The translations under genes were made by a program, and so were the position numbers. From NCBI GenBank assembly GCA_035528375.1, contig DATKYS010000114.1, forward strand, positions 1-7,411: 7,411 nt of DNA. The letters are read 5' to 3'. The stretch comes from a bacterium. Lineage in GTDB: Bacteria > RBG-13-66-14. The notes beneath the pieces are model-generated. The model worked only from the letters and a program-made list of their open reading frames with translations, searched no databases and was not told where the DNA came from. Shown here one piece after another: positions 309-7,284 of this stretch (position 1 is its first letter; every line of letters begins with the position of its first letter).

Positions 309-331
309 CGGTTAACCGGCCGTTTCGGCCG
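309..331. repeat. Nested palindromes over the HEAT gene stop codon
   Basis: CGGTTAACCG (309-318) is a perfect 10-bp palindrome containing the leftward TAA stop (314-312). It abuts CGGCCG-TTT-CGGCCG (317-331), a 6-bp perfect stem with a 3-nt loop inside the last sense codons. No U-tract follows, so this is not an intrinsic terminator. It may simply result from the Thr-Ala-Glu-Thr-Ala codons at the end of the gene. Confidence 0.4.
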
Positions 332-3284
332 TCACGGGCGCGGGCAGTTCCACGCCGGCCAGCGCGTCCCTAGCCGCCCTCGCCAGCTCGGGGGGCGAAT
401 CGGCGGCTTCGATTATCTGCGTCAGGTAGGCCCGACCCACGCCGGTGGGATCCGCGGCCAGGGAGCCCAGAACGGTAAGCCTCACGGCCAGGCTCTGGTC
501 CTCGGTGGCTATCTGGCCCCAGATTAAAGGCATGCGCTTGTCCGTCGTCCAGCCCGCTAACCGCTCGGCCACCAGAACCCGGATAGACTCGTCGCCGGTG
601 CGGAACAGGCGGCGCAGATACGTCTGAGCCCCCAGGTCGTCCAGGGCGACGATGAGCACGGGGGCGTCCTGTGGATACGCGCTGATCTGTTCGGTTAAGC
701 GATCCAGGACCTTGTCCCCCCCGATTCTGACCAGTATCGCGTACCCGAGCTGCCGTATCCCGGCGTCGTCGTTATTCAGGTAAGTGTCGAAGGCGGTGTA
801 GGCGGTGGGACGATACTGGGCGATGTTATCCAGCAGCCCCTGGCGCAGGTAGTCGTACTGCAGGGCCTTTTCGGCCAGGATGGAGTAGGTGTCGTTGGAC
901 GCTATATCCCCGGTTAGGGTCTGGGTCGCGTAGGCCCAGGCGGAGATCTCCCGCGGCTCGGTGGCCAGCTCCTCGATCTGGCTCTCCGGGGTGCCGGTCA
1001 GCTCGGCGGCCAGGAGCTCGATGCCGGCTCCGAGGGGCGTGATGGGGGGCAGGCCGGGGTTGATGGTCAGGGTGCTGGTGGAGTTGAGCTCCTCTTTCAG
1101 GAATGCTAATCCGCGTCCCTCTTCGTCGTTGAGTCGGGTGAGGCAGACGGCTGCGCCGTAGCGGACGCCGTCATCCTCATTTTTGAGATAACCGGCGATA
1201 TCGTCGGCCATGCGTTTGTCCCCCATGCGGGAGATGAAGTCGAGGGCGGCGATTTTCACCGACGGCGCGACGTCCGAGCCGAGTATATCGCGCACCTCGT
1301 CAATGGTGTTCTTGTCGCCGATGGCCAAGATGGAGCCGATGGCGCTCTCCTGCACCCAGGGATTCGGGTCCTGGAGGGCCTGGCCCAGGAAGCCGGTCGT
1401 TCGCGTATCGGCGAATATGCCGAGGACCTGGGCGGCGCCCCAGCGGACGTAGTCGGACCCGTCGTTCAAAAGGCCCACCGTGGGCATCACGCCGCGTGTG
1501 TGGCCGATGCTCCCCAGGCAGGCCACGCCGATGAGCCGCCGGCCGACGCTGGGGTCGGAAAGCATGTCTATGAAGTGGTTGATCCCGTCGCGGTTATCGG
1601 AGGAGGCCAGCATGGAGGCGGCCCGCATTTTCACGGAGTAAATTTCACCCAGGCTCGAGGACAGGTCCTCGAAGTTGTCCTTGGTCTCCCCGTAAATCGT
1701 GTAATCGTCCTCCCCACGCTCGACAAGGGCCGCGAGCGCGTCGTCGCTCTCCGCATAGTCGTAACGGGCGACGGCGTCGAGGGCGGCCATCACAATCGTG
1801 ATGTCCGGGTCCCCGAAGAGCTCCACCAGCATGGGGGGCGCCGGGGTCTCGGAGTTGCTCCGCATGGATAGGGCGTCAATCGCGATGAGGCGCGTCAGTT
1901 GGTCGTTGTCCACCCCGAGGTAGATCTGGAGCTCCCCGTAGTCGGCGATGGAGGCGACCGCGTGGGTGACGGCGGGGATGAGGGTATCGTCGGCGACGGC
2001 GTACCTGATCAGGCGGTCGAGGTCCTCGGAGCTGCCCAGGGACCCCACGCCGCAGATGGCGGCGATGCGAACGTCCCGGTCGGGGTCGTCAAGAAAGCCG
2101 TTGATGGTGCCCAGGTAATCCTCGTTGTCGAGATTGGACAGGGAGTTTATCAATTGGAGTTTGACGAACCAAAGCTCGTCGGGTTTCAAGAGCGCCGCTT
2201 TCATTGCCTCCCCGCCGGTCCGCATCCGTCCGAGAACCATAGCGGCCATCATCCGTCTCTGCGGATCGTCCTCGCCGAGGGCGGCGACGACGGCCGTTTC
2301 GACCGCCTGCTTCCCCTCCTCATTCTCGAAGCTCGCGAGGGCGTTGACGGTGGCGATGCGGACGCGCTCGTTGGCGTCGGACAGGGAGCGCATCAGCGGC
2401 GTGACGGATGTCGTGTCGTCGAAAACGTCCAGGGCCTGGATGGCCGGGATGCGGACCGAGGGTTCCGGGTCCTCCAGGGCGTTGATGCAGTGCTGGTAAA
2501 CCGAATCCTCGAGCGTTTTTAGGTTTTGCCGGTCGAGCTCGGCCGTCTTATCGTCCCCGTAGGAGATGGATTGGAGGGCGTGCGCGACGTAGTAGCTCCC
2601 GATGGCATGGATGGCGTTGAAGGTCGCGGCGCGGACTCCGGCCACCTGGTCCTCGGCGAGCTGCTTGAGGAAGTAACCCGATTCGTGGAGGTGGAGGGAC
2701 GCCAGGGAACCGGCGGTGCAGATGCGAACGCCGGGGTCGGGATCGTTCGCGCCGTAGGAGAATAGGTCTATGGCCTCCTCGCGATCCTTCTCACTGCCGA
2801 AGGCCAGCTGGCCGAGGGCGATCATCACCTCGCAGCGGAACTGGGCCGCCAGCTCGATGGAGAGCTCGTCCTCCCCGATAGCGATGGGTTCCCCCAGATT
2901 CTCGGTTTGGGATTCCGGGAGGTAGGAGGCGTCTATGAGAGGTTGCGTCGCGGAGATGGAACCGATGGCGGCCATGCCCCGGACCGCGGTGATGCGGATG
3001 TCCGTTACCTCCCGCATGATGGCCTCCTCGTCCATCTCCGAGAGGCGCGCGGGGGGCACCTGGGTTTCGAACAGGTTGCGCACGGTCGAGAAATCGAGGA
3101 GCTTGGCGAAGATGTCCACTCCTTCTTCGCCGAGCTTGACGATTTCGTCCCGGGCGAGGAGTCTGGCGCGGGCGTCCTCAGCGGTTACGACCGAGGACAT
3201 GAGCTCGTCGCTGCTGGCGCCGCAACCTATGGTGGCGATGGTGCACAGCCCGATGAGAAGGGCGGCAAAACGGGTCAGGCGCAT
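312..3284 (-). CDS. Large HEAT-repeat lipoprotein
   Basis: A 990-residue protein with an N-terminal lipoprotein signal and then almost only HEAT repeats. I chose the ATG at 3284 rather than the in-frame start at 3338. It puts the signal peptide at the N terminus (Arg2 and Arg5, hydrophobic residues 6-19, then Thr-Ile-Gly-Cys with Cys21 as lipidation site), it has AAAGGGG 5 nt upstream, and the farther start lies around the predicted transcription start. The residue after Cys21 is Gly, so an outer-membrane anchor is likely if proteobacterial sorting rules apply (inference). At least 15 HEAT units are visible by the pattern D-P-x-x-x-V-R followed by an alanine-rich helix, for example near residues 181, 271, 302, 399, 576, 607, 638, 702 and 837. 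Residues 519-548 and 730-800 are irregular, the latter with a Pro/Gly-rich loop. There are no catalytic motifs. HEAT solenoids are binding scaffolds, so this is probably an envelope protein-interaction platform with unknown partner. PBS-lyase HEAT-like repeats would be an equivalent description. Confidence 0.9.
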   Translation of the reverse strand: MRLTRFAALLIGLCTIATIGCGASSDELMSSVVTAEDARARLLARDEIVKLGEEGVDIFAKLLDFSTVRNLFETQVPPARLSEMDEEAIMREVTDIRITAVRGMAAIGSISATQPLIDASYLPESQTENLGEPIAIGEDELSIELAAQFRCEVMIALGQLAFGSEKDREEAIDLFSYGANDPDPGVRICTAGSLASLHLHESGYFLKQLAEDQVAGVRAATFNAIHAIGSYYVAHALQSISYGDDKTAELDRQNLKTLEDSVYQHCINALEDPEPSVRIPAIQALDVFDDTTSVTPLMRSLSDANERVRIATVNALASFENEEGKQAVETAVVAALGEDDPQRRMMAAMVLGRMRTGGEAMKAALLKPDELWFVKLQLINSLSNLDNEDYLGTINGFLDDPDRDVRIAAICGVGSLGSSEDLDRLIRYAVADDTLIPAVTHAVASIADYGELQIYLGVDNDQLTRLIAIDALSMRSNSETPAPPMLVELFGDPDITIVMAALDAVARYDYAESDDALAALVERGEDDYTIYGETKDNFEDLSSSLGEIYSVKMRAASMLASSDNRDGINHFIDMLSDPSVGRRLIGVACLGSIGHTRGVMPTVGLLNDGSDYVRWGAAQVLGIFADTRTTGFLGQALQDPNPWVQESAIGSILAIGDKNTIDEVRDILGSDVAPSVKIAALDFISRMGDKRMADDIAGYLKNEDDGVRYGAAVCLTRLNDEEGRGLAFLKEELNSTSTLTINPGLPPITPLGAGIELLAAELTGTPESQIEELATEPREISAWAYATQTLTGDIASNDTYSILAEKALQYDYLRQGLLDNIAQYRPTAYTAFDTYLNNDDAGIRQLGYAILVRIGGDKVLDRLTEQISAYPQDAPVLIVALDDLGAQTYLRRLFRTGDESIRVLVAERLAGWTTDKRMPLIWGQIATEDQSLAVRLTVLGSLAADPTGVGRAYLTQIIEAADSPPELARAARDALAGVELPAPVTAETAG

Positions 3285-3289
3285 CTCGG

Positions 3290-3296
3290 CCCCTTT
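3290..3296 (-). promoter_or_regulatory. Ribosome binding site supporting the ATG at 3284
   Basis: AAAGGGG on the - strand ends 5 nt before the ATG. It is a purine-rich, imperfect Shine-Dalgarno match, and it favours this start over the upstream in-frame one. A CCCC run at 3303-3300 (- strand) could pair with the GGGG at 3293-3290 across a 6-nt loop, which would partly hide the site. Confidence 0.5.
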
Positions 3297-3322
3297 CCGG
3301 GGGAGTGGGATACCCCGTAATT

Positions 3323-3333
3323 CCAATAATTGG
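3323..3333. repeat. Small palindrome in the HEAT gene leader
   Basis: CCAAT-A-ATTGG is a perfect 5-bp inverted repeat around one central base. It lies roughly 13-23 nt downstream of the transcription start predicted from the promoter at 3353-3382. The position and AT-rich centre would suit a repressor operator, but it is short and no regulator gene is near. Confidence 0.3.
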
Positions 3334-3352
3334 GTCAACTTTCAGTATTTTG

Positions 3353-3382
3353 ATTCTAGCAGAACGCAATCTCCGAGGTCAA
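3353..3382 (-). promoter_or_regulatory. Promoter of the HEAT-repeat gene
   Basis: On the - strand, TTGACC (3382-3377, 5 of 6) is followed after 18 nt by TAGAAT (3358-3353, 5 of 6). The -10 is preceded by TG one base upstream, giving an extended -10 (TGCTAGAAT). The -35 overlaps the TGA stop of miaA (3381-3379). The predicted transcription start near 3346 gives a leader of about 60 nt. A second TTGACC at 3338-3333 has no good -10 behind it. Confidence 0.65.
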
Positions 3383-4314
3383 GAAATCGCTCCGAGACGA
3401 CGCGCCAGTGCGTCGTACGCCGACTCCTCCCCGGGGGCGTCCACCCCGAGCAAGTCGAACCTCGGATCGGAGCGGATCCAGGTCAGTTGGCGCTTAGCCA
3501 GCCTGCGCGTCGCCGTGGCGGTGTCCTCGATCGCCCGCTCGGGGGGAATTTCCCCGCGCAGGCACGCCGCCGCCTGGAGGTACCCGATGGACTCCAGGGC
3601 GGGTGCCGAGGGGGGCATACCCGATTCGAGCAGACCCCGCACCTCCTCCACCAGGCCCCGCTCGAATATCCGGCGGGAGCGGTCGTTTATCCTCCCGTAG
3701 AGCTCGTCCCGGGGACGGACCAGGGCGATCCGGGTCACCGGTCCCTCGATTGGGCGGGACGCATTATCGGCGTTCCACTCGGAGAGCCCCCGACCGGTCT
3801 GGAGGTGGACCGCCAGAGCCCGGGCGAGACGCTGCCGGTCGTGGGGATGGATGCGGTTGGCCGAAACCGGATCGCACCGCCGGAGCCTTTCCGCGAGCTC
3901 CTCGGTCTCGAGCGCCTCCAGCCCGTGCTCGATATCGGGGTCCGTCTCCGGGGCCCCGCTCAGACCGTCGAGGAGAGCCCGGGCGAAGAGGAGCGTCCCG
4001 CCCACGATCAGCGGTATCCGCCCCCGGCGGTGGATTCCCGCGACGGCCGCGGCCGCCAGATGGGCGTACCGGCCGGCGGAAAACCTTTCAGTGGGGTCGC
4101 AGACGTCCACCAGGTGGATGGGAAAGCCGGCGCGGAGCTCGGGCGAGGGCTTGTTGGCCCCGATTTCCAGTCCCCGGTAGACCTTGACCGAATCGCACAG
4201 GACCAGCTCGACGGGGAATGCCCCGGCGAGGCGAGTAGCCAGAGCGCCCTTGCCGACGGCCGTCGGACCGCCGAGGAAGAAAACTCCGGTTCGGGATGCT
4301 TCGGCTTCAGTCAC
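3379..4314 (-). CDS. miaA: tRNA dimethylallyltransferase MiaA
   Basis: Transfers a dimethylallyl group from DMAPP to N6 of adenosine 37, next to the anticodon of tRNAs reading codons that start with U (EC 2.5.1.75). This is the first step towards ms2i6A, in the cytoplasm. At 311 residues it matches the usual length of about 310-320. Family landmarks are in order: P-loop GPTAVGKG (16-23), catalytic Asp41 in DSVKVYRG (41-48), VGGT with Thr107 (104-107), IHPHDRQR (155-162), IGYLQA (243-248) and RRLAKRQLTW (270-279). The start is GTG at 4314; it is the only plausible start before the P-loop, because an in-frame TGA lies upstream. No Shine-Dalgarno is visible. Odd points: the Walker A Ser/Thr after Lys22 is Gly23, the family's common Gln in DSxQVYRG is Lys44, and GGTxLY reads GGTLLF. 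The gene is followed by the HEAT gene on the same strand and is divergent from the TPR gene. Confidence 0.95.
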   Translation of the reverse strand: MTEAEASRTGVFFLGGPTAVGKGALATRLAGAFPVELVLCDSVKVYRGLEIGANKPSPELRAGFPIHLVDVCDPTERFSAGRYAHLAAAAVAGIHRRGRIPLIVGGTLLFARALLDGLSGAPETDPDIEHGLEALETEELAERLRRCDPVSANRIHPHDRQRLARALAVHLQTGRGLSEWNADNASRPIEGPVTRIALVRPRDELYGRINDRSRRIFERGLVEEVRGLLESGMPPSAPALESIGYLQAAACLRGEIPPERAIEDTATATRRLAKRQLTWIRSDPRFDLLGVDAPGEESAYDALARRLGAIS

Positions 4315-4355: not shown

Positions 4356-4383
4356 AATTTACATTCGATGAAAGACGTGTTAA
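4356..4383 (-). promoter_or_regulatory. Predicted promoter of miaA
   Basis: On the - strand, TTAACA (4383-4378, 5 of 6) is followed after 16 nt by TAAATT (4361-4356, 4 of 6). The start site would fall near 4349, leaving a leader of about 35 nt. That leader is GC-rich and can form a CCGCG/CGCGG stem (4323-4327 with 4335-4339) just upstream of the GTG start. Confidence 0.4.
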
Positions 4384-4386
4384 ATT
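4358..4386 (+). promoter_or_regulatory. Predicted promoter of the TPR gene
   Basis: TTTACA (4358-4363, 5 of 6) is followed after 17 nt by TAAATT (4381-4386, 4 of 6). Transcription would begin near 4393, only about 18 nt before the ATG at 4411. The only Shine-Dalgarno-like sequence is AAAGG at 4392-4396, about 14 nt from the ATG, so the mRNA may have a very short or weakly initiated leader. Confidence 0.45.
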
Positions 4387-4410: not shown

Positions 4411-7284
4411 ATGACATACGAGAAGAAATTACCACCCGAGTTCCGCCATCCGGCCGGGCTTTCCGGTCGCCGGAAGTACAGGTTGGTACACGACCTTCCC
4501 GGCGTGGACCCCGGTCTGGACCGGATCATCGAGGAGAGCCTGAACGCCGCCCGGCGCAGGGCTTTTCTCATCGAGTGCGCCGGGGAGATGGGGGGCGACG
4601 GAGCCGCCTTCCGGGAAGCGCTGGCCGCCTTCGCGGTTAAATCCGGATTCAGGGTAATCCGCACCGCCGACCGGGGTGGGGTGGTGGAACCCCTGAGCCT
4701 GGTGAAGACGATAGTGGAGGGGTATGCCCCCTGGGCTGAGCTGCGCGAATCGCTCCCCGCCGCGCTGGCGGAAAATCTCCGCCTCCTCGAGGAAGGCTAC
4801 GCCGAAGCCGGTGAAGGGAAAGCCGAGGACGACGCGGGCGACCCGACCGGTCTGCGCTGGACGCGGGTGGATTATACCATCGAACTCCTCGGACGGGTCA
4901 TGGAGGGGCCCACGGCGGTTTTCGCGGACAACACCGAGGGTGGAGGAGACCTGGAAACCCTGGCCGTTCTGGAGAGGCTGATGAGCGAGCGGAGTCGCAC
5001 CCCTATTCTTCTGGTTCTGGGGGGGACCAGCGGCGCGGTCTCCTCCGAGTACTTTGACCGGGTGGACAGCCTCCACCTGCGATACCTGCCCGTCGTCCGG
5101 TCCGAGGAGTTGGGGAGACTCGGCGAAGAACTCGGTCGGAGGCTCAACCCGGGGCAGCTCGAGCACTACCTCGCGGAACTGCCCCGGAGCCGGGTTCACG
5201 CCGAGCAGCTACGGGCGTACTACGAGCTGGACCTGGACGGCGTGTTCGAAGAGCGCCTGCTCACATCGAAAACGACCATCCAGCTCTTCATGTACCGCTG
5301 GGAGGGATTGAGGAAGGAGGAAAAGAAGGTCCTGTGCGCCCTGGCCGGAGAGACGCGCCCGCAGTCTGCGGAGAGCGTCGCGAGGAGCACCGGCTTCAGT
5401 GAGAAGCGGGTGGAGAAGCTGCTGGGCGAGTTGACGAGGAGGTTCTTCTGCGAGCGGGTGGATGGGGGTTACACACTCCGCGCACCGCGATTCGGCGGGT
5501 GGATCGCCGATTTCGCCGGGGAAATGATGGACAAGGTTCATCGGGCCGGGCTGTCCGCGGAGGTCGAGACCGGGCGGAGCTTTGTCGAGGATTTTTTCCG
5601 GGTGAAGCACCTCTCGGCCGTCGGTCGTGACGACGAGGCCCTGATCGGGCTGGTGGATGTGCTGGAACGCCTGCACCGATCGGGCTTTTTCCCCACCATC
5701 TGTTCCCTGGAGCCCCTCGCGGAGGGAGTCGCGTCCAGGGGTCGGGATAAACGGCTGAGCCTGGAGGCCCGACTGATCCTCGCCCAGGCCGACATCGAAC
5801 TCCTCCGGTTCGATTCGGCGTTACGGCTTCTGGATATCGTCCGGGGATCGCTCTCGGTGGAGGACGCCCCATTCGCGGGGCGGGAGTGTCTCCTCCGGGG
5901 GACCGTCCACGAGGCGAGGGGCGAGAACGACGCCGCAGTCCGGTGCTTTCGGGAGGCTGCGGAGCGATTCGGTGGAACGCGGGAGGGGGCGCTGGCCCTT
6001 CGCCGGGCCGTGGACATCCAGGACACCCTCGGCGACCTCGAGCGGGACGGGTCTCTGGTGGACGAGCTGATGGGCTTTCCCGAGCTGGAAGGCATCGGGT
6101 ACGTGAAAAAGCTGATGAAGGCCAAGCACCTGAGGCGGGGCGGGAAGTTCGAGGAGGCGGGGAAAATCCTCGCCGACCTGGTCAAGGCGGAGAAGCGCGG
6201 GGGCATCACGTGGCTGGGGGTGTCGGCGGAGATTGATCTGGGCAACGTCAACAGGCACCTGGGCCGGCTGGAGGAGGCCGCGAAACAGCTCGACGCGGCT
6301 GCGGAGCACGCCCGGCTCAGGGGCGACCTGCGGGGGTTGGCCGAAGCCAAGTTGGGCCTGGCCAACATCCTCTACCTGCAGGGGCGCTTCGGTGAGGCGG
6401 CGGACCTCCACCTCGAATGCCTGCCGATATTCGATAGAGTGAGGGCGCCCCACGAGCGGATGACGATCCTGAACAACCTCGGCATGATTTACCTGAACTG
6501 GGGGAGGCTGGAGTCCGCCCTCGACTGCCTGGAGCTGTGCCGGGCGTACTTCGCCGGCACGCGCTACACCGCCTACCTCAACGCCGTGGAGCTGAACCTG
6601 GGGCTGGCGCTGGTGAACCTGGGGCTGGCGGCCGAGGCGCTGACCACACTGGACGGGCTCAAGGTCCGGCTGTCCGAGGAGAGCCCCTATCGCCGCATCC
6701 TGCTGTGGGTCTTGGGGCGGGTGGCCCTGGAGCAGGAAAACCTCGAACTGGCCGAGGACCTCCTGACGAGGGCGCTGAGCGGGTTTCGGGACACATCCAT
6801 GCTGAGTTGGGAGTTGAAGGCCGTCCAGCAGCTGGCCGAAATCTTGGTGATGACCCAGCGGCCGCAGCGGGCGAAGGAGATCCTCGAAGAGGCCCGACCT
6901 AGGCTGGAAAGCCTGGGCTCGGACATACACCGGGCGAATTTCCTGCAGGGGCTGGCGGAGGCCGAGCTGGCGCTGGGCGACGCCGATAAAGCCCTGGACC
7001 TGACCCGGCAGGCCATTGTGCTCGACGAGAGGAGCGGTAACCCCGTCAATCAGGCCCTGCTATATCACCTGATGGGTCGCGCCCATCTGGCCCAGGGGGA
7101 CGAGAAGGCGGCGAAAAATTCGCTCAAGAGCGCCATGGACGAGCTGGAGGGAGTCCTGGGCGATTTGACCCAGGCCAGGCACCGGCGATCCTTCCTCAGC
7201 CGTCCGGTCATGCGGAATTTATTCGCCACGGCCACGATGCTTTCCGTGAGCCTGGATCGGAGGAGGTTCGAGGAGGGGCGGTGA
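4411..7284 (+). CDS. TPR protein with a degenerate STAND/AAA_16-type ATPase domain
   Basis: A 957-residue cytoplasmic protein with no signal peptide or membrane segment. Its order of parts matches MalT/PknK-like STAND ATPases: an NTPase-like domain (about 20-230), a lid-like region (231-290), a winged-helix-like segment (about 295-357), then about 11 TPR units (451-915). The TPRs are clear, for example 601-639, 641-677, 683-717, 721-754 and 880-915. The NTPase domain is eroded. Where the family has a P-loop ending G-K-[ST], residues 54-64 read IECAGEMGGDG, so Lys is replaced by Gly62 and Ser/Thr by Asp63. The Walker B equivalent (168-174) keeps Asp173 but has Asn174 and lacks the following His-Trp-Ala-Asp. 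Nucleotide hydrolysis is unlikely. There is no kinase, cyclase, LuxR HTH or other output domain at either end. It is probably a binding scaffold or regulator; partner unknown. It could also be a highly diverged active relative. The coding frame is intact. Confidence 0.85.
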   Translation: MTYEKKLPPEFRHPAGLSGRRKYRLVHDLPGVDPGLDRIIEESLNAARRRAFLIECAGEMGGDGAAFREALAAFAVKSGFRVIRTADRGGVVEPLSLVKTIVEGYAPWAELRESLPAALAENLRLLEEGYAEAGEGKAEDDAGDPTGLRWTRVDYTIELLGRVMEGPTAVFADNTEGGGDLETLAVLERLMSERSRTPILLVLGGTSGAVSSEYFDRVDSLHLRYLPVVRSEELGRLGEELGRRLNPGQLEHYLAELPRSRVHAEQLRAYYELDLDGVFEERLLTSKTTIQLFMYRWEGLRKEEKKVLCALAGETRPQSAESVARSTGFSEKRVEKLLGELTRRFFCERVDGGYTLRAPRFGGWIADFAGEMMDKVHRAGLSAEVETGRSFVEDFFRVKHLSAVGRDDEALIGLVDVLERLHRSGFFPTICSLEPLAEGVASRGRDKRLSLEARLILAQADIELLRFDSALRLLDIVRGSLSVEDAPFAGRECLLRGTVHEARGENDAAVRCFREAAERFGGTREGALALRRAVDIQDTLGDLERDGSLVDELMGFPELEGIGYVKKLMKAKHLRRGGKFEEAGKILADLVKAEKRGGITWLGVSAEIDLGNVNRHLGRLEEAAKQLDAAAEHARLRGDLRGLAEAKLGLANILYLQGRFGEAADLHLECLPIFDRVRAPHERMTILNNLGMIYLNWGRLESALDCLELCRAYFAGTRYTAYLNAVELNLGLALVNLGLAAEALTTLDGLKVRLSEESPYRRILLWVLGRVALEQENLELAEDLLTRALSGFRDTSMLSWELKAVQQLAEILVMTQRPQRAKEILEEARPRLESLGSDIHRANFLQGLAEAELALGDADKALDLTRQAIVLDERSGNPVNQALLYHLMGRAHLAQGDEKAAKNSLKSAMDELEGVLGDLTQARHRRSFLSRPVMRNLFATATMLSVSLDRRRFEEGR
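6593..6630 (+). repeat. Near-tandem 17-nt repeat inside a TPR helix
   Basis: TGAACCTGGGGCTGGCG occurs at 6593-6609 and 6614-6630, a 21-nt (7-codon) period. It encodes NLGLALV followed by NLGLAAE (residues 729-742) within a TPR of normal phase. The repeat unit keeps the canonical TPR spacing, so no extra residues appear to be inserted. Confidence 0.6.

Follow-up and report, generated by a model that had tools for sequence, protein, structure and literature searches.

A MalT/PH0952-type STAND protein with a dismantled nucleotide site, conserved in one Coatesbacteria family

Results

A 957-residue STAND-like protein is encoded beside miaA

The analysed window spans one whole contig, 7,411 bases long, from a metagenome-assembled genome (G000:C114). 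It carries a long forward-strand reading frame, hereafter the pseudo-STAND gene, next to the divergent gene miaA and a HEAT-repeat lipoprotein-like gene (Table 1). The frame opens with an ATG, the same start being kept in its orthologues, and the nearest named relative found is Candidatus Coatesbacteria bacterium RBG_13_66_14, in which the corresponding protein is 86% identical. miaA (IPP transferase) has an intact P-loop and is included as context only. The HEAT-repeat product is 1,008 residues long with a lipoprotein-like signal (IATIGCGASS), and its gene adjoins miaA within the genus, lying near infB and nusA at two further loci (L077, L078). Between miaA and the pseudo-STAND gene, at 4356-4386, promoter-like sites overlap on both strands (2 found against 0.1 expected, by consensus match only). 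At 216-300 of the forward strand, two 18-nt direct repeats, CCCG[TA]AAGCGGGGTCTTT, are spaced by 60 nt; a terminator-like hairpin is predicted for the first (z -2.8) but not for the second.

Table 1 Genes of the window and mapped features of the pseudo-STAND protein
Feature	Position	Strand	Basis
HEAT-repeat lipoprotein-like gene	312-3338	-	window
miaA (IPP transferase)	3379..4314	-	divergent from pseudo-STAND gene
Pseudo-STAND gene, NOD-arm-TPR	4411..7284	+	957 aa ORF
Nucleotide-binding-like domain (degenerate), residues 26-230	4486..5100	+	AF2 model, fold matches, hhalign
Walker A equivalent, G58-A65 (GEMGGDGA for GEAGIGKT), Lys position G64	4582..4605	+	hhalign, MAFFT
Walker B strand and following box, residues 168-182, acidic pair D173-N174	4912..4956	+	hhalign, MAFFT
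Strand 4 and sensor-1 position, residues 198-206, Arg to T206	5002..5028	+	MAFFT alignment
Helical (lid) domain, residues 231-284	5101..5262	+	AF2 model, fold matches; lowest dN/dS
GxP-motif position, R259-S260-R261	5185..5193	+	MAFFT alignment
Winged-helix domain, residues 285-388	5263..5574	+	AF2 model, fold matches; weak TrmB-type winged-helix hits
Hinge motif T[TP]IQLFxxR, family-conserved, residues 288-296	5272..5298	+	orthologue comparison, alignment
Arm domain, residues 389-490	5575..5880	+	AF2 model; boundary by analogy with PH0952 (PMC6468293)
TPR superhelix, MalT domain III-like, residues 491-957	5881..7281	+	Pfam, AF2 model, fold match

Profile and structure comparisons recover a STAND architecture

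Family searches by sequence detected the TPRs (Pfam TPR_12, 5.2e-27; TPR_MalT, 2.4e-12), and residues 1-290 had no convincing family match in Pfam, NCBIfam or PADLOC, where TPR and weak winged-helix hits alone were returned (TPRs only, in the case of PADLOC). AAA_16 (PF13191) was absent among the best 25 of 28 Pfam matches to the whole protein at E<=1 and from the Pfam matches of six N-terminal halves at E<=10, and searching PDB chains by sequence with an N-terminal profile yielded nothing useful (best E 0.011). No N-terminal effector or signalling domain (EAD, TIR, peptidase or Death-like) was found; some 25 residues precede the NOD, with no Pfam hit there.

Profile-profile comparison was more informative. 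An alignment of the six orthologues matched intact AAA_16 STANDs, nearly all drawn from the same phylum, at Prob 98.1 and E 7.6e-13 in global hhalign mode and at Prob 96.8 and E 2.1e-10 in local mode (columns 52-325). With a reversed-sequence decoy scoring Prob 0.2, this match lies above chance. AlphaFold2 models of residues 1-390 (pLDDT 76, pTM 0.68) and of the whole protein (pLDDT 83.7, pTM 0.73) run from a strand-loop-helix core through a helical lid, a winged helix and an arm into a TPR superhelix. The core comprises a strand at 52-58, the loop, a helix from 62/63 to 77 and the 'GFRVIR' strand at 81-84, much as the first-pass annotation of this DNA had proposed from the letters alone. Its broader assignment of the protein to the STAND class as a pseudo-NTPase with the domains still in order was likewise borne out by hhalign, the models and the fold matches.

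The structural comparison of residues 1-390 with STANDs suggested at that stage revealed strong fold similarity. The best PDB match of the NOD model was Apaf-1 (Z 14.2, rmsd 6.4 A, 305 residues aligned), alongside MalT (Z 13.5, 6.0 A, 311 residues), PH0952 (Z 12.7, 6.1 A, 290 residues) and the NB-ARC domain of NRC1 (Z 12.7); the rmsd values of 6.0-6.4 A probably reflect a shift of domains relative to one another. The TPR part matched MalT domain III (Z 24.1, 352 residues) and also the peptide-sensing TPRs of Rap, NprR and AimR; in the full-length fold search, TPR proteins took up the hits, which makes it uninformative on the NOD. Both the AAA+-type NBD-HD followed by the STAND-specific winged helix, which define the fold of the class (AlphaFold2 model, hhalign), and the arm domain followed by a TPR sensor, which define its MalT/PH0952-type TPR members, are present. 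Escherichia coli MalT and P. horikoshii PH0952 have the NBD-HD-WHD-arm-TPR order and fold in common with the pseudo-STAND. They differ in having a working nucleotide site, with a resting form that holds ADP and multimers driven by ATP (PMC6468293, PMC10427625); MalT also carries a DNA-binding domain. The pseudo-STAND has lost the motifs and has no effector domain.

All four nucleotide-contact motifs are lost

STANDs are closed monomers while they hold ADP; on switching they assemble, ATP-bound, into multimers in which ATP sits between the protomers (PMC6468293). To read the nucleotide site, we relied on a register in which hhalign and an independent MAFFT alignment with 27 intact STANDs agree. 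The GEAGIGKTRL of intact STANDs here reads GEMGGDGAAF (58-67), and GELRSDGATF, GEGCFGDPSF and GEGCRGEPSF in orthologues L005, L007 and L008, respectively. The Lys position is occupied by G64 here and by G, D and E in those three, and the Ser/Thr position by A65 and by A, P and P; across the family, GxxxxGK[ST] is missing from 6/6 orthologues, with G, D or E for the Lys. The loss of GKT noted in the first-pass annotation therefore stands, but its register, G61-G62-D63, was off by one, 'GKT' corresponding to D63-G64-A65. Its reading of Walker B was exact: D173-N174 aligns with the [E/D]-D pair of intact STANDs and is kept in this genus, being replaced by C-S in L007 and C-A in L008. Of the HWAD-like box that had been reported missing, the invariant Asp D180 is the sole survivor.

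Two further losses had gone unremarked. The sensor-1 position, R in most intact STANDs, is T206 here and V, D and D in L005, L007 and L008, and the GxP motif, GNP in most intact STANDs and in contact with adenosine in PH0952 (PMC6468293), reads RSR here and KSR, PSR and PSL in the same orthologues. All four nucleotide-contact motifs are consequently gone from each of the orthologues compared. The length of the P-loop, G58-E59 (the family 'GE'), F67, D180 and E182 are retained, and judged by the lost motifs the domain would be classed as an inactive STAND domain.

Since every contact residue has been lost, switching from the ADP-closed to the ATP-open state is unlikely, and we consider it very probable that the pseudo-STAND cannot perform it. 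Motif loss alone does not entail loss of nucleotide binding, because LypA of the Caulobacter LypABC system has an ATPase domain that is needed and modelled to bind ATP without conserved Walker A/B residues (PMC13236601). Together with the D173 and Gly-rich loop kept in the own genus, this precedent would favour a divergent but live STAND that binds ATP, ADP or another nucleotide through non-canonical residues and still switches. Such a protein would, however, have to manage without the Lys, the Ser/Thr, the Walker B pair, the sensor-1 Arg and the GxP motif; no new conserved basic residue has arisen in the loop to replace the Lys, and L007 and L008 combine an acidic residue at the Lys position with Pro for Ser/Thr and zero Walker B acids. 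We accordingly regard a live site as quite unlikely.

The six known copies form one clade, and the gene is under purifying selection

The pseudo-STAND is a single-copy gene of six genomes from three genera of one Coatesbacteria family (four genomes in one genus, one in each of the others), with orthologue identity falling to 28-30%; the family is known from these six metagenome-assembled copies only. A seventh genome of the Coatesbacteria family (G005, 70% complete) showed no copy. Homologues of the N-terminal half were found nowhere else in the phylum, and other genomes, of 290 searched in all, gave matches to the winged-helix part only, all weak. Other TPR matches in the phylum (L009, L010, L014, L015) were set aside as TPR-only-looking in the stretches read. 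In the tree, the six sequences group together as a single clade (100/100), whose stem of 1.94 changes per site carries a long-branch warning; the tree resolves no intact sister group. Single STAND subfamilies compared by hhalign gave mostly low scores (Prob 0.1 to 83) and point to no specific intact parent subfamily.

The first-pass annotation had asked whether the Lys is lost in all orthologues and whether the gene is under purifying selection, and both proved to be the case: the Lys is lacking in 6/6 copies, and the search of 290 genomes turned up no orthologue in which GK[ST] is intact. Substitution ratios were computed by NG86 between the window's copy and L004, more distant pairs being near synonymous saturation. 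The whole gene gave dN/dS of 0.074/0.298 = 0.25, with 0.080/0.247 = 0.32 for the NTPase part (residues 49-230), the highest of the regions measured; 0.037/0.307 = 0.12 for lid and hinge (231-298), the lowest; 0.25 for residues 299-390; and 0.075/0.303 = 0.25 for the TPRs (521-957). Purifying selection maintains the gene.

These values also bear on what is being maintained. A decaying pseudogene of an active STAND would account for the copy in G001, frameshifted as assembled, but the open frame is complete in 5/6 genomes at dN/dS near 0.25, and identical motif losses extend down to 28-30% identity; with the Lys lost in all six copies and even the NTPase domain at 0.32, this is not one decaying allele, and the pseudogene explanation is hardly tenable. 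In a second alternative, the TPR half alone matters as a generic scaffold and the NOD is a passive remnant. The TPR part is indeed long, well modelled and similar to peptide-binding TPRs, and the NTPase part has the highest ratio. Against this, the NOD is kept in every orthologue, no region measured has a lower ratio than the lid and hinge, and their share of invariant sites, 0.26 versus 0.16 in the TPRs, is the highest apart from the N-terminal segment. That the lid and the hinge motif TPIQLFxxRW are so constrained shows that the NOD keeps a selected role, and a scaffold of TPRs alone appears improbable. Taken together, alignment, model and dN/dS identify the pseudo-STAND, with high confidence, as a MalT/PH0952-type NOD-arm-TPR protein whose nucleotide site was dismantled ahead of the split of the known family, with purifying selection acting on the protein ever since.

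The G001 frameshifts (L077 10210-12514, G001:C178) lie near residue 520 and near residue 744, close to a contig end, and may be decay or assembly error.

Neighbourhoods on short contigs and domain content differ from those of known inactive STANDs

Within the genus (window, L077, L078), the neighbours of the pseudo-STAND gene are miaA, the HEAT lipoprotein gene, infB and nusA. Those in G003 (L079) are rsgA and an MFS transporter gene, and the neighbour in G004 (L080) encodes a VIT-vWA protein and is convergent. No MoxR-vWA linkage or defence neighbours were seen at the loci examined, which are on short contigs; MoxR was not found, and the VIT-vWA gene is the convergent one of L080.

Bacterial STANDs that are inactive have been described before. 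The iSTAND and iSTAND2 domains (Kaur et al. 2020, 2021; PMC7159879, PMC8195603) are catalytically inactive STAND NTPase domains found, like the pseudo-STAND, by profile comparison. They join MoxR and vWA proteins as third member of ternary conflict systems and in many cases come with N-terminal signalling domains; on the short contigs read here, neither the linkage nor such a domain was found. A third type accompanies GT4/HEPN effectors. The pseudo-STAND differs further in its MalT-like TPR sensor. LypA shares the loss of Walker A/B residues, and its system has a STAND-like TPR partner, LypB, but LypA fuses a peptidase to the ATPase domain and belongs to a defence operon, whereas the pseudo-STAND is a lone NOD-TPR protein without peptidase. 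A search of a limited literature collection returned nothing on Coatesbacteria signalling or on degenerate Walker A motifs in bacterial STANDs. The window's protein is a MalT-type TPR pseudo-STAND beside miaA that matches no family tested. Inactive bacterial STANDs have so far been described mainly in MoxR-vWA and other conflict systems, and this one is single-copy, selected and outside such systems.

The role of inactive STANDs in conflict systems is itself a proposal (PMC8195603), and its extension to this protein would make the dead NOD a receptor for RNA or DNA that signals through the TPRs. In addition to the generality of that proposal for inactive STANDs, the presence of a winged helix with weak hits to DNA-binding winged-helix families is consistent with it; a winged helix nevertheless belongs to every STAND NOD, MoxR-vWA and defence neighbours are absent at the loci examined, and PADLOC gives TPRs only. 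We consider a nucleic-acid receptor unlikely.

A proposed nucleotide-independent adaptor and its candidate partners

The best overall explanation, which we hold to be reasonably probable, is that the pseudo-STAND acts as a nucleotide-independent TPR adaptor or regulator with its frozen NOD as a docking module. The TPR superhelix would take a protein or peptide as ligand; the NOD, frozen and presenting a conserved lid and hinge surface, would serve as a fixed docking module. Lacking an effector domain, the pseudo-STAND would have to act via another protein. The scaffold or decoy suggested in the first-pass annotation would likewise be a candidate role. Partner control of STANDs has precedents that make such a model plausible by analogy: MalY stops MalT oligomerization (PMC10427625), and in plants RGA5 and RRS1, both sensor NLRs, keep their helpers repressed, with a sensor P-loop that is dispensable (PMC9528088). 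The latter parallel is one of function only, a NOD protein that does not need its own P-loop controlling an active partner; RGA5 and RRS1 are LRR receptors with integrated domains, and the bacterial pairing here is a candidate only. NRCX was dropped as a further precedent, its P-loop being intact (PMC9851556).

Tentatively, the pseudo-STAND might cap or gate the assembly of one of the cell's own intact STANDs, which would then be its partner. A stronger form, in which the protein signals without nucleotide and its NOD, turned into a fixed partner subunit, gates the assembly of active STANDs, the dead/live pairing resembling plant sensor-helper NLRs, seems doubtful. The pseudo-STAND offers a simple case for testing NOD function without the ATP switch, and for dead/live STAND pairing in bacteria.

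The genome of the window also carries intact STANDs, including a cyclase-AAA_16-TPR protein (L083), a full-length relative of an intact guanylate cyclase-AAA_16 protein that in G006 (L081) lies head to head with the pseudo-STAND gene, 216 bp apart; the contig stops short of any TPR part of that G006 protein. The NOD of both cyclase proteins falls in the same alignment register as that of the pseudo-STAND; they differ in having intact GEAGIGKT and ED-QW motifs and an N-terminal guanylate-cyclase domain, and they are not resolved as its sister. Co-occurrence of the two proteins in the family is suggestive, though drawn from seven incomplete genomes, and the head-to-head arrangement is seen in 1/6 genomes. 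In G003, the pseudo-STAND is intact while the cyclase-STAND appears only as a remnant, which speaks against the cyclase-STAND as an obligate partner and weakens its candidacy as such. The remnant (L094, about 1500-2350, G003:C188) has broken frames and no NOD, with residues 1-29, 68-155 and 887-1068 alone recognisable, and could be decay or misassembly.
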